Source: a virus
Virus record (IMG/VR): IMGVR_UViG_3300010883_008035
Coordinates: 1-27,148 of that record
Length of the DNA stretch: 27,148 nt
Reading direction: 5' to 3' (one strand)
Made by a program: the position numbers and the translations under genes. This document shows, in pieces, positions 699 through 26,332 of the stretch. Within the stretch, counting starts at the first letter, position 1. Each line of letters starts with the position of its first letter. The notes beneath the pieces were generated by a model. The model did no database searches and was not told the DNA's origin. It was given only the letters and a program-made list of their open reading frames with translations.

Positions 699-1523
699 AT
701 GGGTAACGCAATTTATACATCTTGGGTGAAGTCGGGGAAGCGTGTATATCATGATGATGTATACTGCTTCGCCCACTTCCTCACCAGGAAGAAGACAGAC
801 ATCAAGAAGATTACATTTTATCCCATCCTACCCTGCCAAAGTGCAACATCGCTCGACAAAGGCAAGCGTCTAACAAATTTCCTTAATATAATCAGTGAAA
901 TATTCCCAGGTATGCCTGGTAAGTGGACACCAACTACCCTTATCAGAGGTAAAGGACTAGAGATTACTACTGAAAGACTGCCCGGTACCTACGTTAATGC
1001 TTTGTTCAGAGTATTACGGGTGCTTCAAGAACAGGACGGTGTAGTTACATCAATGAACGAGTGGTACAAGGAAATGTTAATTGGTAATGGCACTCCGCAA
1101 CAAAAAAGATACATGTATAATGATGATGATATTCCAAATAAGTTTAATGTGAATAGCAGAGCACTGATTAAAAAAGACCCGAAGTACATACCATATGTGG
1201 CGTGGTGTCTAGGTAATTTATGCACTATGACATGGAAGGCATGTACACAATCCCCTTGTCATCAGGCATATGATTCTGGTCTTAAGCAAGAGGGTTCTGC
1301 GTATCATCTACGTTACAACACACCAAAGATGTTAAAAGATGCACAAGAACAAGGAATCTTCTATAAAGATACGGGGCAATACAAAGACTTTGGTGGTCCT
1401 GAATACATGATTGGTGGTGTAAATAACTACTCATCCGGCCTACGAATACCCAATTATGATGAAGATTTTAACGATGGCTTTCAAGCACTATGGAAGAACC
1501 TAACACAAAAGGTGTCTGTATGA
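699..1523 (+). CDS. unknown protein, first gene of the amidoligase operon (274 aa)
   Basis: The product starts MGNAIYTSWVKSG and ends WKNLTQKVSV. I do not recognise a family. It looks soluble, with aromatic-rich segments, a Cys/His cluster (WKACTQSPCHQAY) in the C-terminal half and an acidic YDEDFNDGF near the end. No purine-rich ribosome site precedes the ATG; that position is occupied by palindrome copy 2. The stop overlaps the next start as ATGA (1520-1523). Being first in a run of amidoligase, amidotransferase and ATP-grasp genes, it could be a substrate, carrier or target-recognition component of that pathway, but this rests on context alone. Confidence 0.7.
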   Translation: MGNAIYTSWVKSGKRVYHDDVYCFAHFLTRKKTDIKKITFYPILPCQSATSLDKGKRLTNFLNIISEIFPGMPGKWTPTTLIRGKGLEITTERLPGTYVNALFRVLRVLQEQDGVVTSMNEWYKEMLIGNGTPQQKRYMYNDDDIPNKFNVNSRALIKKDPKYIPYVAWCLGNLCTMTWKACTQSPCHQAYDSGLKQEGSAYHLRYNTPKMLKDAQEQGIFYKDTGQYKDFGGPEYMIGGVNNYSSGLRIPNYDEDFNDGFQALWKNLTQKVSV

Positions 1524-2137
1524 GATATTTCATATCAGAAGGACAGCAGTCGTACGCCAACGTATTTGATGCAATGGATTGGAGCCAAGTGGATAAGATA
1601 TACAACGCTGAAGTTGTTATATTCACAGGTGGTGCTGATGTTTCACCTCGCTTGTATGATGAGGAAAACACAGCATCATATTGTGATAACTCTAGGGATA
1701 TTGTTGATATGAAGAGTTGGTGCTATGCCAAACTGTATGGTCTACCTATGATTGGCATATGTCGTGGTAGTCAGTTCATCAACGTGATGTCAGGTGGTAA
1801 GATGAAACAGGATATAAGGGGGCATGGGATTGGGTACGAACGTACACATCCGGTGAATTTGATACTATCACCTTCCGAGCTAAATCCTTACACCGTTTTG
1901 ACAAGCACACACGTTAACAGCACCCACCACCAAGAAAGCATACCTCTTCACCCTGCTAATGTATTAGCAGTCTTCGATGACCGTGTAGTAGAAGCAGTTG
2001 GATATCCCAGCAACAGAGCATTTGGCGTGCAATGGCACCCAGAAGCAATGCCACCTGAAGATGATGGACGCATAGTGTTTCAACAGATGTGTACAAGCCA
2101 CATAGCACACAACAACCCACTACATCATTGGAGTTAG
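1520..2137 (+). CDS. class I glutamine amidotransferase, PuuD/peptidase C26-like (205 aa)
   Basis: I chose ATG 1520 because it forms an ATGA overlap with the previous stop; an in-frame ATG exists at 1490. The fold is recognisable from ordered motifs: FTGGADVSP (residues 35-43), the nucleophile elbow GICRGSQ with Cys81, STHHQ near 134-138, and QWHPE supplying His173 and Glu175. This is the Cys-His-Glu triad of the family that includes gamma-glutamyl-GABA hydrolase PuuD. Such enzymes cleave gamma-glutamyl amide bonds or release ammonia from glutamine. Beside amidoligases it could trim gamma-glutamyl intermediates or feed ammonia to a ligase, which is inference. No signal peptide. Palindrome copy 3 lies in the gene. 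Confidence 0.9.
   Translation: MRYFISEGQQSYANVFDAMDWSQVDKIYNAEVVIFTGGADVSPRLYDEENTASYCDNSRDIVDMKSWCYAKLYGLPMIGICRGSQFINVMSGGKMKQDIRGHGIGYERTHPVNLILSPSELNPYTVLTSTHVNSTHHQESIPLHPANVLAVFDDRVVEAVGYPSNRAFGVQWHPEAMPPEDDGRIVFQQMCTSHIAHNNPLHHWS
1953..1970. repeat. palindrome copy 3, CTGCTAAT-GT-ATTAGCAG
   Basis: The longest arms of the set (eight bases each), inside the class I amidotransferase gene. Read as ANVLA (Ala-Asn-x-Leu-Ala frame). Confidence 0.92.
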
Positions 2138-2142
2138 TGAAT

Positions 2143-3021
2143 ATGAATGCAATGCCTGAAATTCTCGTAGGACATGATGCTGAATTCTTTGTTATGGATA
2201 TGGAAGGTGCGTATCAAATCCCCTTATGTGAGGGTACTAAGGATGAGCCGCTACCCCTGACCCACGGTCACTGGCAACGTGACAATATCATGGTAGAACT
2301 CAACGGTATCCCCAAAGCTAATCCATTAGCATTTATGAAGAGTGCCCAAGCACTGTTCAAGGAAGCATCTAGTTTACTTCTAAAGGATAAGATGTATCCC
2401 ACAATTGCACCTAACATAATGCTTAGTAATACTCTGCTAGAGCGTGATGAGGTAAAAGAGATTGGTTGCATGCCAGATATTGACGCTTGGACTCAGAAAC
2501 AAAACAAGCCGCATGATTTCCGCGACCTTGGTGCTGGTAGGTATGGTGCGGGACATCTTCACTTCTCATGGAAAGATTCCCAAGAATATGACGATGAATA
2601 CAAGTTTGCTGTAGTGCGTAGCATGGACTTGTTACTGATGCCTGCCCTAGCATATGCCTATCACTTGGGTGGCACTGATGAACGTGACGGCTCGCGCAAA
2701 CGAAGAAGGTTCTACGGTGCTCCAGGTTCTATGCGATTAAAGGACTACGGTCTGGAGTATCGTGTACCCGACAATACATGGCTTAACTTGTGTGCTCGTA
2801 ATCAAGCCAAGTCTGTGTTCTTTGAGCCTATGTTCCGAGCAGCTAAGGCATGTATTGCTTTTCCTCAATACGCTGACATGTTGTATAAGAACAATCCTAA
2901 GATTGTCCACGAAATCAAAAGATATATAATGCAAGGTAATACAGCAGAGTTGCGGCGGATGTATGAAGAAAGTCTTCTCAAAGAAATCGTAGCCATAGAG
3001 AATAAAATATGCCAGACGTAG
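2143..3021 (+). CDS. COOH-NH2 ligase-type amidoligase, phiEco32-like (292 aa)
   Basis: Start ATG 2143 is nine bases after GGAG (2130-2133); the longer reading back to 2089 would overlap the previous gene. The amidoligase (glutamine-synthetase-like) fold is suggested by GHDAEFF (Asp12, Glu14), an acidic strand VELNG (Glu52), GAGHLHFSW (His138, His140) and LEYRVPDN (Glu205, Arg207). These match the metal- and ATP-binding acidic, HxH and ExR positions of the family. The closest family I recall is the Pfam entry for phage phiEco32-like COOH-NH2 ligase type 2 (PF14395). The expected reaction is ATP-driven amide or isopeptide bond formation between a carboxylate and an amine; the substrate is unknown. 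It sits between an amidotransferase and an unknown gene whose start overlaps its stop. Confidence 0.85.
   Translation: MNAMPEILVGHDAEFFVMDMEGAYQIPLCEGTKDEPLPLTHGHWQRDNIMVELNGIPKANPLAFMKSAQALFKEASSLLLKDKMYPTIAPNIMLSNTLLERDEVKEIGCMPDIDAWTQKQNKPHDFRDLGAGRYGAGHLHFSWKDSQEYDDEYKFAVVRSMDLLLMPALAYAYHLGGTDERDGSRKRRRFYGAPGSMRLKDYGLEYRVPDNTWLNLCARNQAKSVFFEPMFRAAKACIAFPQYADMLYKNNPKIVHEIKRYIMQGNTAELRRMYEESLLKEIVAIENKICQT
2317..2330. repeat. palindrome copy 4, GCTAAT-CC-ATTAGC
   Basis: Six-base arms inside the first amidoligase gene, read as ANPLA. Confidence 0.9.
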
Positions 3022-3608
3022 ATGTCTTTGAGGAATTGTGTAAGAAGTTTAATGAAACACTAGTAAAGGATAAACACGACAACCCTATTAGGATTCAAGG
3101 TGTTGTCTCAAAAAACTTTGTAAGGGTGGCTGTAGAAACGCATATGGTATTCAATAGCAGTTGGTCTTCTAAAATGGATGTACCGATTAAAGACCTTGTT
3201 CTTGATTATCCCTCTAAGCGTGGATACAGGATGATTGGTGGTCAGTTGTGTTACTGTTGCAGAAATCCATACAGGCAGTGGCGCATAGGTGCCAGCTTGA
3301 AGAACACTACTGTCATCCCTTTGGTAGCTGGTGCTCGTGTTGGCATACATAACCCTTATACATTTGACGTGTCCGATGCCAAATCTTTTGTGCAAACACC
3401 AGCGTATACATACAACCTAGTTACTGCGCTGGTAGAAGATACACCATTTATATCTCCTAACCTAGCAATACTTCGAATTAAAGATGACTTTACACTGTTC
3501 TATAAAATATATCCCATTGCTAATGTATTAGCAGAGGGTCAACTCAAGTACTTCAGAAAAAGCTTCAATCAGTTGTCTGAAGTCATCAAACAGGATGCAC
3601 AGGTATAA
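3009..3608 (+). CDS. unknown protein of the amidoligase operon (199 aa)
   Basis: The ATG at 3009 overlaps the end of the upstream amidoligase by 13 bases, and the TAA stop overlaps the next ATG as TAATG (3606-3610), so it is firmly embedded in the operon. It begins MPDVDVFEELCKKFNE. A Cys-pair motif (LCYCCRNPYRQWR, around residues 81-93) resembles neither a complete zinc finger nor a known active site. No membrane segment or signal peptide. I do not recognise the family. Its place between two amidoligases suggests a dedicated accessory or substrate-binding role, which is inference. Confidence 0.75.
   Translation: MPDVDVFEELCKKFNETLVKDKHDNPIRIQGVVSKNFVRVAVETHMVFNSSWSSKMDVPIKDLVLDYPSKRGYRMIGGQLCYCCRNPYRQWRIGASLKNTTVIPLVAGARVGIHNPYTFDVSDAKSFVQTPAYTYNLVTALVEDTPFISPNLAILRIKDDFTLFYKIYPIANVLAEGQLKYFRKSFNQLSEVIKQDAQV
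3518..3533. repeat. palindrome copy 5, TGCTAAT-GT-ATTAGCA
   Basis: Seven-base arms inside the 199-aa unknown gene, read as ANVLA near its C terminus. Confidence 0.92.
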
Positions 3609-4708
3609 TGGAACCAAAGGTTTTAGGAGTTGTGTTAGGTCACTTACCTAACTTCAAAAAAGTAGGCCCATCTAACAAATTAGTATCCTCTAGGCGTGTT
3701 GGTCTAGAAGCAGAGATGGAGGATGCGTGGTTCTCTAATGAGGAAGTCAATAACAACTTGGGATGGTGGCATGACGTAGGGGATGGCTCACTACGTGGAC
3801 ATCGTTCTAAGGAACTGATACTCAATATGCCTATCGGCGGGGCTACTTTGTTCAACGCTATCAGTGAGTTGTCTGAGTTTGTACCACGTCAGAGGAAACC
3901 AGTACTTAGTGAGCGTTGTAGCTTTCATGTACATTTAGATGTACGAGATATGACATTCCCCATGCTAAGTAATCTCATATTCTTGAATAGCATCGTGGAA
4001 CCTATTCTGTTCAAGTATGCAGGCAATGAACGAGATAACAACATCTTCTGTCTACCCGCTGAAGATTGTTCGTTGTACAACACTGCATTAGCCCGAGCAA
4101 CTAAAGAAGGTAGGATTGAGCCGTTCAGACGAGCCGTGTCTAAGATGCTCAAGTACTCTGCTATCAATTACCTGAGCATGAGGGAACGAGGTAGTGTGGA
4201 GTATCGCATGTTACCGGGTGAGTACCGTAAGTCTAAGGTGCTAGCATGGGTTAACATACTGCTAAGTATTACAAAGTACGTTGAACTACATCCTGATATG
4301 GACATAGAAGATTTTCCCGGTTCTATATCAGAACAAGGCCCATTGAAATTTCTCAAAGAATTATGGGCACCTAAAGAATTCGAGGCTTTGAATAAAGCAC
4401 TTGATGAACCAATTGAACATGTACTGATGCGTAGTATTAGAAACTCTCAAGAGTATATTTTATCTGCTGACTTGATGGCTGAGCAAACTGAGCAGAAGAA
4501 GGGATGGATGAACAATCCAGTACAGATATTAAATGATGAGGGTGGGAATCCTTGGGATGAGGAAGAAGAAGAAGAGGAGGATGTTGACGACCCTTGGGAA
4601 CCTAATATAGTGCCCCGACTGGCTATCCGTGCTAATCCATTAGCAGGCGCTATCTTACAGCGAGCCGTGGCAGATGATATGGTCGATGACCGAGACAACG
4701 AGGAATAA
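3608..4708 (+). CDS. second amidoligase, Amidoligase_2-like (366 aa)
   Basis: The start overlaps the upstream stop (TAATG). Family positions are visible in order: RVGLEAEMED (Glu34, Glu36), GDGSL (Asp59 to Ser61) followed by KELIL (Glu69), CSFHVHLDV (His107, His109) and GSVEYRMLPG (Glu198, Arg200). This is the putative amidoligase enzyme pattern, a glutamine-synthetase-like ATP-dependent ligase. It differs clearly in sequence from the upstream amidoligase, so the operon has two non-identical ligases and possibly two bonds to make. The C-terminal ~80 residues are a separate acidic tail with a run of Glu (DEEEEEEEDVDD) and no visible fold, perhaps a protein-interaction or disordered region. It is followed three bases later by the class II amidotransferase. 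Confidence 0.85.
   Translation: MEPKVLGVVLGHLPNFKKVGPSNKLVSSRRVGLEAEMEDAWFSNEEVNNNLGWWHDVGDGSLRGHRSKELILNMPIGGATLFNAISELSEFVPRQRKPVLSERCSFHVHLDVRDMTFPMLSNLIFLNSIVEPILFKYAGNERDNNIFCLPAEDCSLYNTALARATKEGRIEPFRRAVSKMLKYSAINYLSMRERGSVEYRMLPGEYRKSKVLAWVNILLSITKYVELHPDMDIEDFPGSISEQGPLKFLKELWAPKEFEALNKALDEPIEHVLMRSIRNSQEYILSADLMAEQTEQKKGWMNNPVQILNDEGGNPWDEEEEEEEDVDDPWEPNIVPRLAIRANPLAGAILQRAVADDMVDDRDNEE
4630..4645. repeat. palindrome copy 6, TGCTAAT-CC-ATTAGCA
   Basis: Seven-base arms in the acidic-tail part of the second amidoligase gene, read as ANPLA. Confidence 0.92.
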
Positions 4709-4711
4709 TAT

Positions 4712-6280
4712 ATGTGTGGTTTAATTGGATTTATGTCGTTAACAAACCCAGAAGATAAACATCGAAGGTTCCTGACACATGGATTGTTTGTGTCATCACT
4801 ACGAGGAGAAGATTCAACAGGTGTAGCGTTTATACCTAAGCAACCTGAGCAAGATGAATCAATACTACTGAAGGCAGTACTACCCTCTTACCATTTCATT
4901 GATACAAGAAAATATGGTAAGGCATTGGGTGAACTGTGGAAGTATCGAGCAGTGATTGGTCATACCCGAGCAGCTACCCGTGGTAAAATCTCGCAGGAAA
5001 ATGCTCACCCGTTTCAAGTTGATAACATCATGCTGGCACATAATGGTACACTACGCAGTGTTGCTGGGTTGGAAGGTGTACCCAGTGACATCGACAGCTA
5101 CCAGATAGCATTGTCTATAGCAGAGAAGGGGTGGAAGCATACCCTACCACTGTTGAATGGTGCATATGCCTTGACTTGGCACAATACAGAAGACAATACC
5201 ATGAATATCGCTCGCAACGAAGAACGTAGTCTGTACTATGCCTTCGATAAAGAACGTACCACTATGATGTGGGCATCAGAAGATTGGATGATTGAGGCTA
5301 TAGGCAATAGAACTAAGATGAACATAGATTCTAAGTCTATCAAGCACATTGCACCTGGAATTCTGTACTCATGGAAGCTTAAGTTTGAGGCCAATCAAAA
5401 GTTTCCGAAACCAGTATGTAGGAAGTTTGAGATATATACACCACCACCGCAACCAAAGTCTAAGCCATATGTACATAATCAAAATCATTACCAATCATAC
5501 CAACACGCTAAACACACAGGAGCGGTAACAACAAACCCTCCACATCGTCCCGCGTACCAGACATCGAGCAATGGAGTGACAACGCCGATGATGCGTGGGA
5601 CGTCTACCTCCTCGAACAGCAATTCAAATACAGGGACTGGCACTAAACCTGCTAATGCATTAGCATTAGTTTCGAAAGCTCAACCGGCCAAGGACCCAAA
5701 AGCACTAGCCCCGGAAGGAAACATATGTCAACTCGTCCGGGGCGAGACGGTACAAGTATTGATAAACGACTTCCAACCACTACCTCACGGGAGAGCAACA
5801 CCCCAGAACATGGGTCATTTGCAGGGGTACTGCATTCCTTGCAACGCTACTTCGGACACCGCAATTGATGTAGATGTCTACGGTGTACACCGTCTGCAAT
5901 GGGATGGTGTAGTAGACATGTTGCAGAACGGTGAGTACTACAAAGGTGTGTTGGTTACTGGTGTGGTAGGTAACATATCATACGCTGACAAGAGTACATC
6001 CTTTGGTATTAGCATCTTTGTTAAACTCACTGAGGTAATTGGTACTCAGCATATATATCGGCTGGACTATGGGGCAGTAGGTACAGATAAAGAAGTTATC
6101 CCTGTAATTGATGAGGAAATTACGCACGACGACTTAATAGCATTGGGGCTGGGGTGTGATTTTTGCGCTACGGTAATTGATGTAACAGAGATTGAGGATG
6201 TAGGTTGGACTGACCAGAGTAAGCCGTTGTGTAAGGCTTGCACCCAAAAATTCTACGACAACGGACACAATCTACGATGA
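4712..6280 (+). CDS. class II glutamine amidotransferase with linker and zinc-binding C-terminal domain (522 aa)
   Basis: The N terminus MCGLIGF places the catalytic Cys at position 2, as in Ntn-type class II amidotransferases. RGEDSTG (31-37), GHTRAATRG (83-91) and AHNGT (109-113) are the substrate-binding and oxyanion motifs. The amidotransferase domain spans about 1-225. A low-complexity Pro/Ser/Asn/Thr/Gln linker (about 240-335) leads to a domain (340-522) unlike the synthetase or isomerase partners usual for this class. That domain ends in a four-Cys knuckle (CDFC at 482-485 and CKAC at 507-510), probably zinc-binding. The likely role is to release ammonia from glutamine, or transfer glutamyl groups, for the neighbouring ligases. 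The stop overlaps the ATP-grasp start (ATGA, 6277-6280). The function of the C-terminal domain is unknown. Confidence 0.88.
   Translation: MCGLIGFMSLTNPEDKHRRFLTHGLFVSSLRGEDSTGVAFIPKQPEQDESILLKAVLPSYHFIDTRKYGKALGELWKYRAVIGHTRAATRGKISQENAHPFQVDNIMLAHNGTLRSVAGLEGVPSDIDSYQIALSIAEKGWKHTLPLLNGAYALTWHNTEDNTMNIARNEERSLYYAFDKERTTMMWASEDWMIEAIGNRTKMNIDSKSIKHIAPGILYSWKLKFEANQKFPKPVCRKFEIYTPPPQPKSKPYVHNQNHYQSYQHAKHTGAVTTNPPHRPAYQTSSNGVTTPMMRGTSTSSNSNSNTGTGTKPANALALVSKAQPAKDPKALAPEGNICQLVRGETVQVLINDFQPLPHGRATPQNMGHLQGYCIPCNATSDTAIDVDVYGVHRLQWDGVVDMLQNGEYYKGVLVTGVVGNISYADKSTSFGISIFVKLTEVIGTQHIYRLDYGAVGTDKEVIPVIDEEITHDDLIALGLGCDFCATVIDVTEIEDVGWTDQSKPLCKACTQKFYDNGHNLR
5650..5665. repeat. palindrome copy 7, TGCTAAT-GC-ATTAGCA (perfect)
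   Basis: A perfect 16-base palindrome in the linker region of the class II amidotransferase gene, read as ANALA. Confidence 0.93.
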
Positions 6281-7059
6281 ATAAGGTAGCAGGAGTACTG
6301 TCATATAAACCACGCAAGCTAGTCCTTAACCTGGCGAAAGCCGTTGGCATCAAGTACGCACCAATCACTAACCCACGCAGATTCTTACGTGCATCCTATG
6401 AATGGGACACGATATTCAACTGGGGTTCAAGTGGTTGGGAAGCTATGGAAGGCCAGACAATTTACAATCATCCCAAGTTCATCAAGCATGCAGTCAACAA
6501 GCGTCAGTGTCTCAAGACTCTAGAGAAGCAGGGGTGTCCTGTAATCCCTTGGACTAGAGACCAGGAGCAAGCAACACGGTGGCTAGAGCACGGCCATTGG
6601 GTGATGTCCCGTGAACGAATCATGGGAGCTAGGGGACAGGGGTGTGTCCTAGTGAAAGAATTGGAGGATGCTAATCTATTAGCAGAGGGGAAGTTCTACA
6701 CAATGTTCAAAAAGAAGTGCCGCGAATTCAGGATACATGCAGCGTTTGGTAAATGTATTCTGTACCAACAAAAAAGAAGAAGAGAAGACTTTGATAATCT
6801 TCCGGGTAATGATAACTTTGTTCGCAATTCTGGTAGTGGTTGGGTATTTTGTATCAAAGACGTTAAACATGTTGAACTCTTAGAAGAGGTTGGTGTCAAA
6901 GCTATTGAAGCATTGCAGCTAGATTATGGTTCAGTAGATATAGTGTACCATCAAAACACACCATACATCTTGGAAGTCAACACGGCTTCCTCTATATCAG
7001 GTAAATCTACCATGCAAGCATACGTTGATGCATTCCAAGGTAAATTGAATGCGGCTTAA
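6277..7059 (+). CDS. ATP-grasp ligase (260 aa)
   Basis: ATG 6277 gives an ATGA overlap with the preceding gene and is preferred over an upstream in-frame ATG at 6238. ATP-grasp features are a glycine-rich loop (RERIMGARGQG, about 112-122), REFRIH (149-154), LDYGSVDIVY with Asp221, and LEVNTASS with Glu233 and Asn235, which fit the magnesium-binding and adenine-pocket positions. The enzyme would activate a carboxylate as acyl phosphate and join it to an amine, as RimK and D-Ala-D-Ala ligase do. The substrate is unknown. It is the last gene of the operon, directly before palindrome copy 9 and a terminator, and it completes a set of three ATP-dependent ligases with two glutamine amidotransferases. 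Confidence 0.88.
   Translation: MNKVAGVLSYKPRKLVLNLAKAVGIKYAPITNPRRFLRASYEWDTIFNWGSSGWEAMEGQTIYNHPKFIKHAVNKRQCLKTLEKQGCPVIPWTRDQEQATRWLEHGHWVMSRERIMGARGQGCVLVKELEDANLLAEGKFYTMFKKKCREFRIHAAFGKCILYQQKRRREDFDNLPGNDNFVRNSGSGWVFCIKDVKHVELLEEVGVKAIEALQLDYGSVDIVYHQNTPYILEVNTASSISGKSTMQAYVDAFQGKLNAA
6669..6684. repeat. palindrome copy 8, TGCTAAT-CT-ATTAGCA
   Basis: Seven-base arms inside the ATP-grasp gene, read as ANLLA. Confidence 0.92.
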
Positions 7060-7077: not shown

Positions 7078-7085
7078 CAACTACA

Positions 7086-7112
7086 CCCTGCCAAGGATGG
7101 CGGGGTTTTTTT
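7086..7112 (+). terminator. Rho-independent terminator ending the amidoligase operon
   Basis: The stem CCCTGCC (7086-7092) pairs with GGCGGGG (7099-7105), seven pairs with one G-T, across a six-base loop AAGGAT, followed by seven T residues (7106-7112). It lies directly downstream of the ATP-grasp gene, and the primase ribosome site GGAG (7113-7116) follows at once. Transcripts of the amidoligase operon would largely end here unless antiterminated. I see no convincing sigma70-type promoter between it and the primase start. Confidence 0.9.
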
Positions 7113-7125
7113 GGAGCAAAATTTA

Positions 7126-8085
7126 ATGGATATATACAACGAAATACGCATGATGGCTCTAGAACTACCTGAAACAATGAGTACAAGAGAAATCTGTCCA
7201 GTGTGTGAAGGAGGTACGTCTAAGGAGAAGAGCTTACACATACGTCGCATGGAAGGGGGTAATCTTTATGCAGCTTGTTACCGAGCAAGCTGTAGTTTTT
7301 CCCCACACGTAGTTCCGTCGGACAAAGGAACTATCACTACTATCAGTAATAGCACCGCATTCCGAAAGCAAGAAAAAAATTACTACAAAAAAGATTTGGA
7401 ACTATTGCCAGATTCGGTTGTCCAATATTTAAAAAGATTTGCATACAGTGCATTAGAGCAATCAAGTCCTCAAGACATTGATTGCAAGCTTGGCATGCAA
7501 CAAGTTGATGAACGGGAGTCTAGTTTTTATAAGAAGGAAGGGTGGAGATATTCAAGAGAAGACCACGCACTTGTAATGCCACTCAAAGATATTCATGGTA
7601 CTGAGTTCGCTATCGGGGTTAAGCCCCTACCGCTCTCTCCATGCAAATGGAAGTACATGACATACTACAGCGACAAAAAGGCACCCAACATACATTACCC
7701 ACGTATAACCAGAACATGTTATCACTCTTGGTTAACAGAAAAAGTACGTCCAGAAATTCAAAGGACATGTGTTATAACAGAAGACATAATATCTGCTACA
7801 AGGATGTCTACGTTGTTACCAAGTGTTGCTATTAACGGTACTCACATAGGTGATAAAGAAGTCGTTTCTTTGATGAGAAACTATGACCACATAGTGGTTG
7901 CGTTGGATAAGGATACGTGGGAGAATGTACATGTCAGTAAAGGTCAGAGATTCAAACAAGAGTATGGGTTCTGTTTCAAGTCGTTCAAAGTACTGAAGCT
8001 TGAGAAAGACCCCAAGTATTTAACAGACGAAGAATGGAGAGTCATCTGTGGAAAACAAGGTATTAGCAGCAGCTATACAGAGTAA
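7126..8085 (+). CDS. DNA primase, zinc-finger and TOPRIM domains (319 aa)
   Basis: Start ATG 7126 is nine bases after GGAG (7113-7116); a TTG at 7111 is in frame but would overlap the T-run. A zinc-binding module near the N terminus has CPVC (Cys24, Cys27) and CYRASC (Cys51, Cys56), as in T7 gp4-type primases. A TOPRIM core follows: VITEDIISATR with Glu219 and VVALDKD with Asp261 and Asp263, the metal-binding residues. The protein would synthesise RNA primers for lagging-strand replication. There is no helicase domain; that function is in the next gene, which overlaps by 38 bases, so primase and helicase are split here instead of fused as in T7. Confidence 0.88.
   Translation: MDIYNEIRMMALELPETMSTREICPVCEGGTSKEKSLHIRRMEGGNLYAACYRASCSFSPHVVPSDKGTITTISNSTAFRKQEKNYYKKDLELLPDSVVQYLKRFAYSALEQSSPQDIDCKLGMQQVDERESSFYKKEGWRYSREDHALVMPLKDIHGTEFAIGVKPLPLSPCKWKYMTYYSDKKAPNIHYPRITRTCYHSWLTEKVRPEIQRTCVITEDIISATRMSTLLPSVAINGTHIGDKEVVSLMRNYDHIVVALDKDTWENVHVSKGQRFKQEYGFCFKSFKVLKLEKDPKYLTDEEWRVICGKQGISSSYTE
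7338..7362 (+). repeat. direct repeat copy A (25 bp, 18 identical in a row)
   Basis: TACTATCAGTAATAGCAC (7338-7355) plus seven further bases match 9314-9338 with two mismatches in total. This copy is inside the primase gene, read as TISNSTAF. Confidence 0.85.
8036..8041 (+). promoter_or_regulatory. ribosome-binding site GGAGAG for a GTG start
   Basis: GGAGAG lies six bases before GTG 8048 and decides the helicase start. It is located inside the 3' end of the primase gene. Confidence 0.7.
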
Positions 8086-9241
8086 GGAAGCATATGTTAA
8101 AATCATCAACCTAGCAGCAGAGGGTATGTCAGACAAGGCAAAGATTGTACTACAGGCAGTAGGACGGTATTATGACAAAGACATACACGCAGTAAAGGTT
8201 GATAAAGAGATACTGATACAGGCACTAGAGAGAGAACACCCAAAGCATGCAGAGATATTCAAGCAGGTAGTAGAAGGCTTACCACATGATGAGGTTAGTC
8301 CTCCTAATGTGGTGCAGAGCATCATCCAAGTAAAGCTTGACAAGGTAAAGGATGACCTAGCGCAAGCGTTCACCTCTAGCTCTGATAAGGAAGGACCCAT
8401 AGGTGATCTACTTGCCGAATGGCAACGCTTAAGAGATGGCAAGATAGAGCAGGAAGAGGAAGGTAGTGAGGTGTTGATTGGTGCGTCCCTTGCAGAGTTG
8501 TTTGCTGACAGGAAGAAAGAGAAAATCAAGTTGTTACCAAAGGTGTTGAATGCTTACCTTGACGGAGGTGCGTCTAGACAAGAACACATAGTCATCTTTG
8601 GACGCCCTGAGATAGCCAAGACGACGTTTATCATCAACATGATGTACGGGTTCATACTACAGGGGTTAAAGATACTGTACGTGAATAACGAAGACCCTTC
8701 GCTGAAGATTTTAGTGAGGTTCTTCCAAAGAGCTACAGGGTTATCTAAGGAGCAAGTAGAGAATGACCCCGCCGAGGCAGACAGGCAAATGAAGGCTAAG
8801 GGGCACTATGAAAACTTCGTTTTCTTCTCAGTTCCTGACGGAACTTTGAAAGAAATTGAGAGTCTAATGGTTACTCATCAGCCAGACGTAGTTATCATTG
8901 ACCAGATGCGTAACATCAACCACAAGGGTGATAACAGGACGATGCAGCTAGAGAATATATCCAGGGAAACACGTAAGCTTGGTCGTAAGCATAACTCGCT
9001 AATGATTAGCATTACACAAGCTGGAGAGAGTGCTGAGAATAAGAAGGTGCTAGGTCAAACGGATGTAGATTGGAACAACACTGGTATACAAGGCACAGCA
9101 GATTTACTTATTGGCATAGGAGCTGATGAAGAGATGAAACAAACAGGTAAACGTATATTATCGTTCTCAAAGAATAAGATTTCAGACAGACATGACCCAT
9201 TGCCGGTCTTGTTTAACACTAGGCAGGTGAAGGTACAATGA
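8048..9241 (+). CDS. replicative DNA helicase, DnaB/RecA-fold (397 aa)
   Basis: GTG start at 8048 with a good ribosome site. An N-terminal helical region (1-150) precedes a RecA-fold ATPase. Walker A is IFGRPEIAKTTF with Lys191 and Thr192; the residue before the Lys is Ala190, where the usual DnaB form (GxxxxGKT) has Gly. Walker B is DVVIIDQM with Asp285. A DnaB-like ISITQAGES segment follows, then an NKISDRHD stretch toward the C terminus. The protein should act as a ring helicase at the phage fork with the primase encoded just upstream. The stop overlaps the next tiny ORF as ATGA. Palindrome copy 10 is in the gene, in a different frame from most copies. Confidence 0.88.
   Translation: MENKVLAAAIQSKEAYVKIINLAAEGMSDKAKIVLQAVGRYYDKDIHAVKVDKEILIQALEREHPKHAEIFKQVVEGLPHDEVSPPNVVQSIIQVKLDKVKDDLAQAFTSSSDKEGPIGDLLAEWQRLRDGKIEQEEEGSEVLIGASLAELFADRKKEKIKLLPKVLNAYLDGGASRQEHIVIFGRPEIAKTTFIINMMYGFILQGLKILYVNNEDPSLKILVRFFQRATGLSKEQVENDPAEADRQMKAKGHYENFVFFSVPDGTLKEIESLMVTHQPDVVIIDQMRNINHKGDNRTMQLENISRETRKLGRKHNSLMISITQAGESAENKKVLGQTDVDWNNTGIQGTADLLIGIGADEEMKQTGKRILSFSKNKISDRHDPLPVLFNTRQVKVQ
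8998..9010. repeat. palindrome copy 10, GCTAAT-G-ATTAGC
   Basis: Six-base arms around one G in the helicase gene, read as SLMIS and not in the Ala-Asn-x-Leu-Ala frame. Confidence 0.9.
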
Positions 9242-21600: not shown

Positions 21601-24106
21601 CTTGGAATTGGATCTTGTTGTACACCCAATCCATAGCTTGTGCTTTACTTGGAAAGATGTGTCCAAGGTCCTTACCATTAATCTTTGCACGAAAGCCTCT
21701 GGCATCCTTGTGAAAGACTCTCTGTCTTTTAGGAGTTCCACTAGCCAAAGCATCCTCTAAAGGATTAGTTCTGGATATGTTCTTTGTTGGTGTAGTGTAG
21801 GCAAAGCGAATGTCCTGTATGGTTACAGTCCTTCCCTTCATCTTCATTTCAAACGTACCGGCTTGAATCTTTGCCAAGGTAGAATTAGCGAACAGAGCTT
21901 TCATCTCAGCACCAGAACGCAGTGCTTCTCTTACTGGAAGCATCTCTCGCAGTTCACTGGGGCTAAGCTCAAAGCCAAACTCCTTAGTAATACGAGCTAT
22001 CTCTCGTGCTTCACCAGGAGAGGCTCCTCTTTCATCCAACCCCTTGATGCGTGTCTCCATTGCAGCTTGTTCTTTAGCATGAATCACAGCAGCCCGTTCT
22101 GCTTCCACAGCTTTACGAGCGCCTGCTTCTTTAGCTACACGATATGCGGTACGTAGTTTTTGTTTTGTTGCAACTTCAAGACTATCCGCTGCTCTACCAG
22201 CTCTGTGCGAAGTGGCAGCAGCTAACAACATTTCTTCCATCGTGGATTTAAATGCAGGCTGCTGTCTGGCTTTATCTTTCAGCCAAGACTTCCAATGCTT
22301 AATAGGCATTTCATCCATAGTGGACGTAATGGACTTATGCCATTCATCCATTCTAAGACCACGCTCTTCTGTGAATGCTTTGAATTCATCATACATACCA
22401 CGAGCTTTCATCAGCTCGGCAGCAGGACTACCATCTTCAAAAGGAAAGCCATCCCACCACAAAGTCTTAGCTGTGGGTTGATGCGCTATCTGCAACAGCT
22501 TTTCTCTGCCAAGTCCTTCAGGACTTCGCGTCTTAAGCATTTTTTCTACATTGTCACTAATAGGGTCTGCATGAATAGGGTCATTAGATGCACGGTTGGT
22601 ATAGGTTTGTGTGGGGTCATTGGCAGCCATAGGTCCCTTACCCTTGATTACATTAGGGTAATAGGTATGGAAGTATGAGTCCGCATCAGTCGGAACCATC
22701 TTAAGACCTTTCTTTTCTTCCTTGGCCTTAGCAGCTTTACTCTGTTTCTTACTTTGACCCTTCTTAGTTTTCTTAGTAGTAGCTGTAGCTGCTTCACCAC
22801 CAGCATCCTTAGCTGCTTTAGGAAACAGAACTGTAGGCCCACCACTTAGTGAATCAACTCGTGTGGACCACTCTTGTGCAGCACGTTCATCAACTACCTT
22901 GCCTAGCTCACCAGTTTCATCTGCTTGCTTAGCAAGGAATACATCCTGCGACCACTTCTGTCCATATAGAATAGAAGCAGTCTGCTTGGCTTTGAACTCA
23001 GCCATAGTTATCAAGCCAATGGAGTTACCCATCTCTAATTTGAGATTCCATTCGCTAGCTGTCAAAGCTGCAAATTCATCTGTTGATTGAATACCTTCAG
23101 CAGAATATATCTTCCGCACGTCTTCGGATGTGAAAGGCTCGTTGTATATCTTCTTCTGAGTAAACATACTTCGTAGTGCAATGATGCCACCACCTACAAG
23201 AGCAGTACCAGCAGACCCAACAGTAACACCTAGTGCTACAGTTAAGGGGTCTATCTCCCCGTACTCAGACAAGCTGTACATCACACCATCTACACCACCG
23301 AACACAGCACCAGTTAAAGCCAAGCCTTTAATACCTTGACCAATACCAGGAAGCAACCATGATTCATCTATAAACATTCCTGCGAAGTACCCTGCTTTAA
23401 CCCAGGGATCATCACGGATGTTTTTGATAGCAAACATTTCTGGATGCTGTTCACGTAACTCCATTTCATTTTCTATGTTTTCAATGTAATCAATTTCTTT
23501 GTTAGTTGACCACGGGAAAAAAAGATTGGCACGTCTATGAGCATTGTGCAAAGCTTGTGAAGGATTATTGTTAGGAAGGGGTTGACCTTGAGCATCTAAG
23601 TTATTAAAGGTAGCGTCGAGAGAAGAGCCGGTTTCTGACATCATAGCTATCTGGTCTTGAGACAACTCCATACCAAACATCGTTTGAAGAGGCTGAGTAT
23701 CATGTACATTAAGAGAATTGTTGGAAGTCGCCCAATAAGTCCATCTGTCTTTAAGTCTACGACCAAACCCTGCTAAAAAAGACATCTCATCACGTCCAGT
23801 CTCAGCACCGAACCACCATCTATCCCACTTGCTGGGCATCAGTCCTTCAGACTCAGTTTGCTTATCTCTGGAACCATGACCACCAAGACCAGCGTCCTCT
23901 GCGATTTGACCCGCAGAAGCAATCAACGAAGAAGTTCTTTCTTGGTCGGAGTAGCTACCTGCGTCACGCATCTTCTTCAAATCTTTGAGATAGGAACCAT
24001 CTGAATCATTATCCAACAGAGCCATCTGTTGTCTTTGACGCATAGGTTCACCCATAGCATGTTGAAGTTCTGCTATTGGAAAATCATCAAATCCGTATAG
24101 TGGCAT
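18671..24106 (-). CDS. giant internal virion / DNA-ejection protein (1811 aa)
   Basis: It starts MPLYGFDDFPIAELQ three bases after the stop of the upstream 498-aa gene and ends three bases from the convergent plus-strand stop. No enzymatic motif is recognised. Visible features are two Gly/Ala-rich hydrophobic segments (about 240-312 and 992-1035), a Lys-rich spacer (TKKTKKGQSKKQSK, about 440-470) and a basic C terminus (KSKDKQKMMNILFGNK). Size, hydrophobic stretches and last place in a row after medium-sized coiled-coil proteins match the internal core or ejection proteins of podoviruses (compare T7 gp14, gp15, gp16), which leave the capsid and form a channel across the envelope. T7 gp16 is about 1300 residues. 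Unlike gp16 it has no recognisable lytic transglycosylase domain. Confidence 0.75.
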   Translation of the reverse strand: MPLYGFDDFPIAELQHAMGEPMRQRQQMALLDNDSDGSYLKDLKKMRDAGSYSDQERTSSLIASAGQIAEDAGLGGHGSRDKQTESEGLMPSKWDRWWFGAETGRDEMSFLAGFGRRLKDRWTYWATSNNSLNVHDTQPLQTMFGMELSQDQIAMMSETGSSLDATFNNLDAQGQPLPNNNPSQALHNAHRRANLFFPWSTNKEIDYIENIENEMELREQHPEMFAIKNIRDDPWVKAGYFAGMFIDESWLLPGIGQGIKGLALTGAVFGGVDGVMYSLSEYGEIDPLTVALGVTVGSAGTALVGGGIIALRSMFTQKKIYNEPFTSEDVRKIYSAEGIQSTDEFAALTASEWNLKLEMGNSIGLITMAEFKAKQTASILYGQKWSQDVFLAKQADETGELGKVVDERAAQEWSTRVDSLSGGPTVLFPKAAKDAGGEAATATTKKTKKGQSKKQSKAAKAKEEKKGLKMVPTDADSYFHTYYPNVIKGKGPMAANDPTQTYTNRASNDPIHADPISDNVEKMLKTRSPEGLGREKLLQIAHQPTAKTLWWDGFPFEDGSPAAELMKARGMYDEFKAFTEERGLRMDEWHKSITSTMDEMPIKHWKSWLKDKARQQPAFKSTMEEMLLAAATSHRAGRAADSLEVATKQKLRTAYRVAKEAGARKAVEAERAAVIHAKEQAAMETRIKGLDERGASPGEAREIARITKEFGFELSPSELREMLPVREALRSGAEMKALFANSTLAKIQAGTFEMKMKGRTVTIQDIRFAYTTPTKNISRTNPLEDALASGTPKRQRVFHKDARGFRAKINGKDLGHIFPSKAQAMDWVYNKIQFQETQAHIAGARAQFIAGTDGTITPRMRDYTEMVKQYPDGAPSRVSNESKIPGTLGINAHVTNTPKPSGATNRPPWDKNRGALNQDLKKGKDMEAEIRKQQEDHAWESRKKNYATRYDREMMTKEALLGADGKNIHLEDPDIVWMNAGIPLNKILEANKAVRAATGAALGMGMGFTDPDSISSSQFIGAMMGAVVGLGAPWMISRMLPRMGRNGPNTYAEKIAHYKNKHIGAWWDNADTLLRKTMSKAGYDAAEGLSSMHRGVAAFNSHNLHELQKVMLTAGITPKAFARWQQNAGLRNEEIKLFQPIRNAMQNRKNRAAIFAAHPEIETTVKFMDKTFMDIAEAAKDQGVWTGAQYNRHMKDFKENGYWPRAWDEGFLGTAEGSARFVEKMSSHNFATAERAQMFIKKLVGEERGNTLIAKMEKKGAEGGYKIDAHVAKEVLEQRLHREASRFSTHLEHSRKIHVDDETFLDEFMMNNPVHVYQQYMHESSSWLIAKATWGKNAEYANSLLNRLREEGHHFAAEEFKHAFQSTVRDQQGWLMKKYTPHSSDGIQKVREGMKKLDAASMWYLSFGTLTNVTQVPIFFLTRAASRPGGLGRGLKDLTKSMYQYITRDSRWRTTIGDGVDIDDFLARTGSVYEASIMEIAGELATSGGHRIFNRNFAEAPPSNMLGGQFAGNFLEIFNNPTRMLHLNAFLPAERMNRGWATLATRSYVEGLLMDLRKLQNGHSMSPKKEKQLHEALAEFKIDSRMPWNSVTEGSMETAGFMGSAAVNFHNAPHLLPRWLQSPDAKVFTRFKSFLYHATNRVQEDVFKPALPGLVRFRDTGQTDNVNLLPLLTYLGVGTGIGMPVESFRSFITGDDREFTQTELMVNAVTRYATFGIHAEMLNAWQYNSYGPATSMLGPMVSKGLTASYKTGSALLNDKPGKAARDLFNTFMPSAPAKRYIANKIYKGKAGRPSTKSKDKQKMMNILFGNK

Positions 24107-24108
24107 TA

Positions 24109-25605
24109 TTAATATCCCAAATTATTAGTATATGTTGAACGGCCAACTTGCCTTAGATTTCTACTAACTTCTTTACTAGAGTTAAGGATTTGTTGTTTTT
24201 GTTTGGCAGTAAGCTTAGGACGCGGCTGCTTGGTTTCCTTTTTATCTACTTCTTTTGTTCCAGGACCCAGATAAGTTTGACCATCAAAAGAAGGTTGTGC
24301 GTCCATGTCTATTGCAGTGCCAAAGTTTTCTACTATTACCCCACCATGCACGTATGTCTTTAGAAAGGGAAACACTTGAAGCATTACATCCAGAGCCATA
24401 GCAGATTTGGCAGAGCCTACCAAACTCTCAGCGATGGTGTCTTGGATGTGTTGAGCAGCCGGGTTGTTTTTAAAATCATTATCTGCAAACAACTGTCTGA
24501 AGTTAGCTAGGTCTGGTTGTACAAACCAAGACTGTCCATCCTTATTCTTTCCTATCCAATGACGAGTATTTGTTGTTGCATCATATACCATTAATTCTTG
24601 ATCTGCTTCCATAGCTAAAGCTTGTATGGCGTCAGAAGTGTTGATGTTCTTACCTCGCTCCATACCCATTTCTTTCTTACGTTGGTCAAGATTGTTCTTT
24701 ATATAATTTACTACAGCAAGCATATCTGCGGGCATACCCGTTACACCTTCATTTGGGTCCCACTGTGCATTAGTTGCTCCCCAGCTACTTGCAGCACCAC
24801 CTACAGCCTTGAATATTCCAGACTGTCCCATCATTTGAACTATTTCTAGCTCACGAGACTCAGCGGTACCTCCAGCCCCTGTCATTGATTTTTCCAGATT
24901 ACTCTGAATAGCAAGGGCTTCTTTAGGGGTCATACCATACTGGCGTGTGTACTCATTAGCTAAGCCTTGCTCCTCCGCTTTTGCTTGTGCTTCGTTCGCT
25001 TGTGCGGACCGAAGTTGATTCTCCGTATACGAGGCGGTCTTAGCTAAGGCTGCTTTTTCACCATCTAATCTGATTGATTCTTCTTGGAATTTCTTAGTAG
25101 CAGCAGCTTTCTCTGCCTCAGTAAGTCTTCCATACAATTCTGATGTAACCTGTCTCTTCGTAACTTCAAGAGTCTCTCTGTCTACGCGATTCTTATCCTG
25201 CTGTACTCCTATTTGCTCACGGTCAACCTTAATGTTTTCCCAGTTAATGTCTGCCGTTTCATCATTGACATCCATCTGCTCACGAAGCTTACCTTCTTCT
25301 AATGACAGGTTCCGTCTGATATCACCACGGTTCTGGTCAACATCATCAGCCTGTTCATTTCGTAACTTAGCTTGTGCCATCAGACCAGCGATTTCAGCAG
25401 CAGCTTTTTGGTTACCGTACCGTTTAGTGAGCTTGGTCTCTTCTCTCTGCTGTTCGTTCTTAGCTTTAATTTCTTCTATACGAGCAGAAGCCTCTGCAAC
25501 CTTAGCCATAGACTCCTGTTGGTCACGGTTCTCCTGGGCTTTCCAGGCTTTACCAGCCCATTCACCCCAGGGACCTTGGTCAAAGAATGTAGAAGTTACT
25601 GCCAT
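24109..25605 (-). CDS. coiled-coil internal virion protein (498 aa)
   Basis: The ATG at 25605 has an excellent ribosome site (AAGGAGTG, then ATGTAAA before the start). After MAVTSTFFDQGPWGEW the region 20-240 is a long charged helix rich in Ala, Glu, Lys and Gln (EASARIEEIKAKNEQQREE, LTEAEKAAATKKFQEE), almost certainly coiled coil. The rest is more globular, with a basic Lys/Gln tail (RPKLTAKQKQQIL). The order 237-aa, 498-aa, 1811-aa matches the internal core protein cassette of T7-like phages, so a T7 gp15-like position is inferred from context and architecture, not from sequence similarity. Confidence 0.7.
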   Translation of the reverse strand: MAVTSTFFDQGPWGEWAGKAWKAQENRDQQESMAKVAEASARIEEIKAKNEQQREETKLTKRYGNQKAAAEIAGLMAQAKLRNEQADDVDQNRGDIRRNLSLEEGKLREQMDVNDETADINWENIKVDREQIGVQQDKNRVDRETLEVTKRQVTSELYGRLTEAEKAAATKKFQEESIRLDGEKAALAKTASYTENQLRSAQANEAQAKAEEQGLANEYTRQYGMTPKEALAIQSNLEKSMTGAGGTAESRELEIVQMMGQSGIFKAVGGAASSWGATNAQWDPNEGVTGMPADMLAVVNYIKNNLDQRKKEMGMERGKNINTSDAIQALAMEADQELMVYDATTNTRHWIGKNKDGQSWFVQPDLANFRQLFADNDFKNNPAAQHIQDTIAESLVGSAKSAMALDVMLQVFPFLKTYVHGGVIVENFGTAIDMDAQPSFDGQTYLGPGTKEVDKKETKQPRPKLTAKQKQQILNSSKEVSRNLRQVGRSTYTNNLGY

Positions 25606-25618
25606 TTTACATCACTCC

Positions 25619-26332
25619 TTATAGAAACGATTGAGAAAGAAGACTGAACATATCTGCTCCACCAGCGGCGTTAGCTGCTTGTCCACCACTTGCTGCAGAT
25701 AGGGAGGACATCAAAGAATCAAGACCAGCACCTTGGTTTGGTTGGAAGCTGGCACCCGAGGCTTGCATCAATTGGTTAACGTAATCAGAGTAATGCTTTG
25801 ACAACACATCATGGTTAACACTTCCAAGAGTTGTTGCAGCATCACCACCATACAAGTTACCAGTAGACGAGAGCTTACGCATAGCGCGTTCACTTGCTTG
25901 ATCCATGACACCTTGTATACCAGAAAATCCTGGGCTTTGTTCTATTCCTGTCTTACCTGAGAACAAATTTAAGAGCTGCTCTTGAAAAGGCTTTCTATTC
26001 TCAGAGCCAAACGTATCAAAGTTAGCTGCAAACTTCTCCAGCATAGCAGCAGAGTCATTAGCAAAAGCTCCTTGGTTACCTCCACCTTTACTTCCGGGTC
26101 GATAACCACCCCCACTCGAAACGCCTCTTGCTGCACGTTTCTGAGCTTGAGATGCATATTTAATACGCTTCATCTCTGCACTATGTTTAGCTATTCGCAT
26201 AGATTCATCTCGTGCATTCTTAGCATTCCAATTCTTCTCACGAGCCATTCTTTGCCGTCGAGTTTCAACTCTGAAACTAGATGAACTTCCTCCTCCTATC
26301 TTTCTACCTATGCCTCCAAAAGTTGTTCCCAC
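25619..26332 (-). CDS. virion-associated protein, gp14-like by position (237 aa)
   Basis: GTG start at 26332 (complement), seven bases after AGGAGG. It begins MGTTFGGIGRKIGGGSSSS; the first ~90 residues are basic and helical (RRQRMAREKNWNAKNARDE), followed by a Gly-rich spacer (GGGYRPGSKGGGNQG) and a helical C-terminal half ending in a Gly/Ala/Ser-rich tail. A short Gly/Ser-rich protein with a basic helix upstream of two larger ejection-type proteins occupies the T7 gp14 position. No conserved motif proves this. Confidence 0.65.
   Translation of the reverse strand: MGTTFGGIGRKIGGGSSSSFRVETRRQRMAREKNWNAKNARDESMRIAKHSAEMKRIKYASQAQKRAARGVSSGGGYRPGSKGGGNQGAFANDSAAMLEKFAANFDTFGSENRKPFQEQLLNLFSGKTGIEQSPGFSGIQGVMDQASERAMRKLSSTGNLYGGDAATTLGSVNHDVLSKHYSDYVNQLMQASGASFQPNQGAGLDSLMSSLSAASGGQAANAAGGADMFSLLSQSFL

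Follow-up and report, generated by a model that had tools for sequence, protein, structure and literature searches.

What would a phage make with several amide-forming ligases encoded next to two glutamine amidotransferase-type enzymes, and does the product end up on a macromolecule? The question is raised by seven same-strand genes (A–G) packed tightly at positions 699–7059 of a 27,148-base IMG/VR virus fragment (the window, meaning the whole stretch of DNA analysed). Comparison with relatives indicates that this operon is a divergent, intact member of a known, widespread cluster (PaP3/LUZ24-like, phiEco32-like and Zobellviridae phages) and no novelty of this phage. The founding paper on the cluster is reportedly that of Iyer et al. 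2009, as citing papers describe it. A first, sequence-only reading of the window had placed such clusters in phiEco32-like phages and called their product undetermined, and it was right on both counts. Many unrelated phage lineages preserve the five to eight genes as a set, at a cost of about 6 kb each, so the cassette must matter to infection.

Gene starts were placed from the junction sequences (Table 1). Neighbouring genes overlap at four of the six junctions, with ATGA at A/B and F/G, 13 bases at C/D and TAATG at D/E; gaps of a few bases separate B from C and E from F, and a GGAG site precedes the start of gene C. The junction pattern resembles that of a translationally coupled operon. The original description of seven overlapping genes was thus correct in number, strand and place, although overlap itself is confined to those four junctions. 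Just past gene G, a stem of nine pairs, six of them G–C, is followed by T6; this looks like a real terminator and agrees with the earlier claim that the operon has its own, with terminator-like hits across the whole region being no commoner than in shuffles. Hydropathy revealed no transmembrane segments in any of the seven proteins, all of which look cytosolic.

Table 1 Features of the operon and the genes that follow it, with likely starts.
Feature	Position	Strand	Assignment
Gene A	699..1523	+	274 aa; no Pfam or PHROG match
Gene B	1520..2137 (ORF extends to 1490)	+	PuuD-like peptidase C26 / class I glutaminase fold
Gene C	2143..3021 (ORF extends to GTG 2089)	+	phiEco32-type COOH-NH2 ligase (PF14395)
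Gene D	3009..3608	+	199 aa; constant partner of C; predicted SH3/KOW/Tudor-like barrel(s)
Gene E	3608..4708	+	Amidoligase_2 (PF12224)
Gene F	4712..6280	+	Ntn class II glutamine amidotransferase (Cys2), long C-terminal part with CxxC...CxxC
Gene G	6277..7059 (ORF extends to TTG 6238)	+	RimK/MptN-like ATP-grasp ligase
Intrinsic terminator	7085..7112 (stem 7085–7106 + T tract)	+	closes operon
Toprim primase	7111–8085	+	directly after operon
DnaB-like helicase	8048–9241	+	after primase

Pfam and PHROG profiles agree with the gene identities first proposed from the letters (two amidoligases, an ATP-grasp ligase, a PuuD-like class I and an Ntn class II amidotransferase, and two unknowns). Gene C matches COOH-NH2_lig (5.7e-6, 26.2 bits against a cut-off of 25; PHROG 1.8e-34) and gene E matches Amidoligase_2 (8.4e-9, 36.1 bits against 22; PHROG 1.3e-43). 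Gene G scores just below the Pfam RimK cut-off (3.3e-4, 20.7 bits against 21; PHROG 1.2e-51) and below that of NCBIfam RimK (40.3 bits against 143.4); a profile match to RimK structures (1.3e-9) supports its membership of the ATP-grasp superfamily, and family searches place it near RimK and MptN. Judged by family, C, E and G are probably three ATP-dependent ligases. Gene B matches Peptidase_C26 (2e-28, 100.1 bits against 20.5; PHROG 4.9e-33) and is closest to C26/PuuD, but because it misses the cut-off of the PuuD equivalog NF008471 (38.6 bits against 266) we call it PuuD-like rather than PuuD. It also matches gamma-glutamyl-CDP-amidate hydrolase (2e-6) and ammonia-supplying glutamine amidotransferases (GATases) such as GMP synthase subunit A (1e-11), and given the latter it could feed ammonia instead of acting as a hydrolase.

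Gene F matches GATase_6 above the cut-off (2.6e-14; PHROG 3.2e-62). It shares with GlmS the Ntn glutaminase domain with Cys2 but lacks the SIS isomerase domain: Pfam gave no SIS match, the glmS model scored 37 bits against 418, and residues 1–169 alone match. The name that PHROG and GenBank give to F, 'L-glutamine-D-fructose-6-phosphate aminotransferase', is therefore misleading. Its C-terminal CxxC...CxxC motif occurs in 91 of 143 family members, compared with 0 of 297 other long ORFs; F usually has a zinc-ribbon-like end.

Active sites were assessed on columns kept at 85% or more in alignments of 86–166 relatives. Of the window proteins, E and F keep every such column, B departs from them at a single position and conservatively, and C and G retain most. 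The triad of B (C91, H183 and E185, numbered from 1490) and its HHQ motif are intact; C retains D30, E32, E70, H156, H158, R205, R216, E223 and R225, with S228 replaced by D; and F has its N-terminal cysteine (C2) and the glutamine-binding residues R86, N111, G112 and D128. The amidoligase catalytic residues, whose absence would have told against the sequence-only reading, are present in these alignments, and nothing suggests a dead enzyme among the cassette genes.

To place the operon among its relatives, we collected loci from annotated phages and from two alignment-based scans of IMG/VR, with at least 80 loci each, and ran iteratively built profiles over all of their ORFs; alignments were needed, as F and G, each used as a single query against viral contigs, found no close relative. 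The cassette genes recur in nearly the same order in more than 100 other phage contigs, and their co-occurrence, on which the earlier interpretation depended, is far above chance. Of the 53 listed loci that were fetched through G alone and extend 5.5 kb or more upstream, all encode E, 52 encode F, 46 C, 45 D, 31 B and 16 a gamma-glutamyl cyclotransferase (GGCT). The commonest orders in 65 non-redundant full clusters are B-C-D-E-F-G and A-B-F-C-D-E-G. The window has the COOH-NH2 ligase, Amidoligase_2, class II GATase and ATP-grasp ligase together, with C, D and E in succession on one strand, and is by profile a B-C-D-E-F-G cluster to which A is added on weaker evidence. In four loci, E and F each occur twice, flanking G, or C occurs twice, a hint of ligase duplication and specialization; three others have reduced sets of E, F and G, without C and D. 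In 84,980 bacterial genomes the family appears in no more than ten short MAG contigs, of which six have the C–D pair and most of the rest, so the cassette is essentially viral. None of the plasmids searched carries C, and defence-system families gave no match to the cassette.

The two unknowns had been singled out as candidate constant partners. For gene D this was borne out: a profile built without the window matches it at E = 1e-15, it is present in 58 of 65 full clusters, directly 3′ of C in nearly all, and C and D occur together in 96 of the 106 loci that have C. Fusion does not explain the loss of D, since the collected loci showed no domain fusions involving cassette families. The AlphaFold2 model of D is strand-rich (pLDDT 83, pTM 0.78). 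Foldseek found no PDB match at E ≤ 0.001 and clear matches only in phage proteins, the best being a 190-aa protein of phage CW02, whose cassette also contains D. Solved structures match it weakly at best, the highest-ranking being KOW, Tudor and SH3-like barrels (top Z 5.9, residues 12–66). An SH3/KOW/Tudor-like barrel is therefore a prediction drawn from the theme among weak matches, whose low Z could also come from a common arrangement; the model suggests that D is a binding subunit rather than an enzyme.

Gene A is far more diverged. Pairwise searches were empty, and Foldseek with its low-confidence model (pLDDT 62) returned only noise. Against a profile of 69 upstream ORFs, however, A outscores nearly all of 350 non-member ORFs, and the few that score as high lie upstream of C in other cassettes. 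One cysteine, C23 in the window, is invariant in a 50-member alignment that includes A. Gene A thus likely belongs, as a distant member, to a rapidly evolving family whose genes lie upstream of C or B, and is probably a regular partner as well.

PuuD and GGCT are unrelated enzymes that remove gamma-glutamyl groups. Across the 65 clusters, 28 have B only, 21 GGCT only, 13 both and three neither, so that 62 have at least one; in at least one of the three, a GGCT gene lies just outside the counted span. The anti-association (Fisher p = 2e-5, uncorrected for relatedness) involves at least 7 and 10 changes on the tree. It is at most suggestive, because the labels follow the tree and an independent-pair test had only seven pairs, two on well-supported branches, too few for power, and gave no significance. 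B and GGCT may thus tend to replace each other. The proposal that gamma-glutamyl intermediates are trimmed gains from this tendency and from the 62 of 65 clusters with either enzyme, and loses much of that gain once relatedness is considered. As the window is a fragment, its phage could encode GGCT elsewhere.

The operon directly precedes primase and helicase genes, as does the cassette in PaP3, ECBP2, T2S2 and Asterion. A ribonucleotide reductase gene (16626–18542, +; PHROG 1.8e-175) closes the replication module, and an SLT transglycosylase domain protein (14586–15104, +) is encoded on the replication side, close to the genes for DUF3310 and endonuclease I. On the minus strand, a single 1811-aa ORF (18671–24106) and its neighbours (24109–25605 and 25619–26332) have no PHROG or Pfam match and probably encode late virion proteins of a divergent lineage. 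The window polymerase is closest to those of Zobellviridae Vibrio phages such as 1.209.O. The stretch covered around the 1.209.O polymerase, including the region upstream of primase and helicase, has no cassette gene; the cassette has therefore been acquired or lost here as a module. At 2157–2470 of that locus, the 1.209.O record annotates CRISPR spacers that overlap an LpxA-like gene, likely a repeat artefact. Expression has been followed in two relatives: most cassette genes are middle genes in PaP3 (PMC4707531), and the ATP-grasp, GATase and GGCT products of SU10 were detected by mass spectrometry (PMC4281155).

We tentatively favour, at somewhat less than even confidence, a cytoplasmic, glutamate-centred amide-ligation pathway that runs roughly when the DNA is replicated. 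It would attach a gamma-glutamyl group and later take it off again, probably on a macromolecular target. Enzyme families, active-site residues, gene order and the partners D and A are observed; the order of reactions, the substrates and the target are what we infer from them. F would split glutamine, and C and/or E, as GS-fold amidoligases, would receive the ammonia or a glutamyl group from it. C and E would form amide bonds, one or both of them using the gamma-carboxylate of glutamate, and G would add a further amino acid, probably glutamate. B would finally strip the gamma-glutamyl group. In other phages GGCT may take this step, which would match the roles of BtrG in making butirosin and of PuuD in degrading putrescine. 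The substrate may be held, or the complex assembled, by D and by the zinc-ribbon-like end of F, and because of these two elements we lean towards a macromolecule (a host or phage protein, an envelope precursor or a nucleic acid) over a free metabolite. The fuller version of this idea, in which the three ligases build a gamma-glutamyl-protected amino acid or small peptide, D and the F end recognize a host or phage target and PuuD or GGCT unmasks the product, is unlikely as a whole, at about one chance in four; we know of no phage system of this kind that has been described biochemically.

A soluble peptide-like or amide metabolite, serving as an inhibitor or signal with no macromolecule modified, is the best of the competing explanations, if still a rather doubtful one. 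In its favour, small-molecule routes such as that to butirosin typically use a protecting gamma-glutamyl group that is then removed. Linked ligase sets often make peptide-derived metabolites (PMC4431377) and some phages encode E, F and G but neither C nor D, yet exporter and tailoring enzymes are absent, and the constant SH3-like partner D and the F end point to macromolecule handling. Improbable, by our estimate, is the modification of cell-wall or other envelope precursors to block superinfection. A proposal cited in PMC10580990 gives the amidoligase and GATase of phiEco32 such a role, and MurT/GatD, a ligase with a class I GATase, amidates peptidoglycan glutamate (as outlined in PMC3267633); all seven window proteins nevertheless look cytosolic, and the cassette recurs in phages whose hosts differ in envelope.

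Covalent modification of phage DNA against restriction seems very unlikely. The cassette adjoins replication genes in several families, and cassette-bearing Gordonclarkvirinae resist restriction without a known modification, but the authors of that work favour a dCTP deaminase and a nucleotidyltransferase (PMC11990801). Moreover, DNA of the cassette-bearing phage tf (PMC3890496) is readily cut by RsaI, HpaI, EcoRV, SmaI and HaeIII (PMC3517423), and no base-modifying enzyme was recognized in the window; for LUZ24-like members, DNA is disfavoured as the target. Least probable of all is an auxiliary role in assimilating host nitrogen into amino acids, claimed for phage ZRK32, a carrier of C, D, E, F, G and GGCT, from whole-phage growth effects without gene tests (PMC10945688), since the cassette enzymes would catalyse ligation at ATP cost with no net assimilation and the family sits mainly in lytic-type phages, with just those ten small MAG contigs among bacteria; macromolecule ligation is more likely.

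What is new here is D as the constant partner of C, the upstream family of A with its invariant cysteine, the zinc-ribbon-like motif of F and the PuuD/GGCT pattern. The partner list, the replacement tendency and the cultured phages with a full set make the question of the cluster's product testable. Amide ligation followed by removal of the gamma-glutamyl group has precedents in butirosin (BtrJ/BtrG), putrescine (PuuA/PuuD) and ergothioneine (EgtA/EgtC) metabolism, where a ligase adds the group and a dedicated enzyme removes it; the families differ in part and the window has no carrier protein, making these functional analogies only. Closer in layout are the LUZ24-like PaP3 and UFV-P2 and the phiEco32-like ECBP2, which share with the window the order C-D-E-F-G just before primase and helicase (PMC3890496) and differ from it in having GGCT in place of PuuD and two tandem A-like genes. 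Closest in content are two isolates on which the profiles were not trained, Pseudomonas phage TC6/PA11, a Paundecimvirus of the Zobellviridae, and Klebsiella phage Asterion: their order is A-B-F-C-D-E-G, whereas F lies between E and G in the window, and the proteins are only about 30% identical, yet both carry all seven families, A to G, as the window does.
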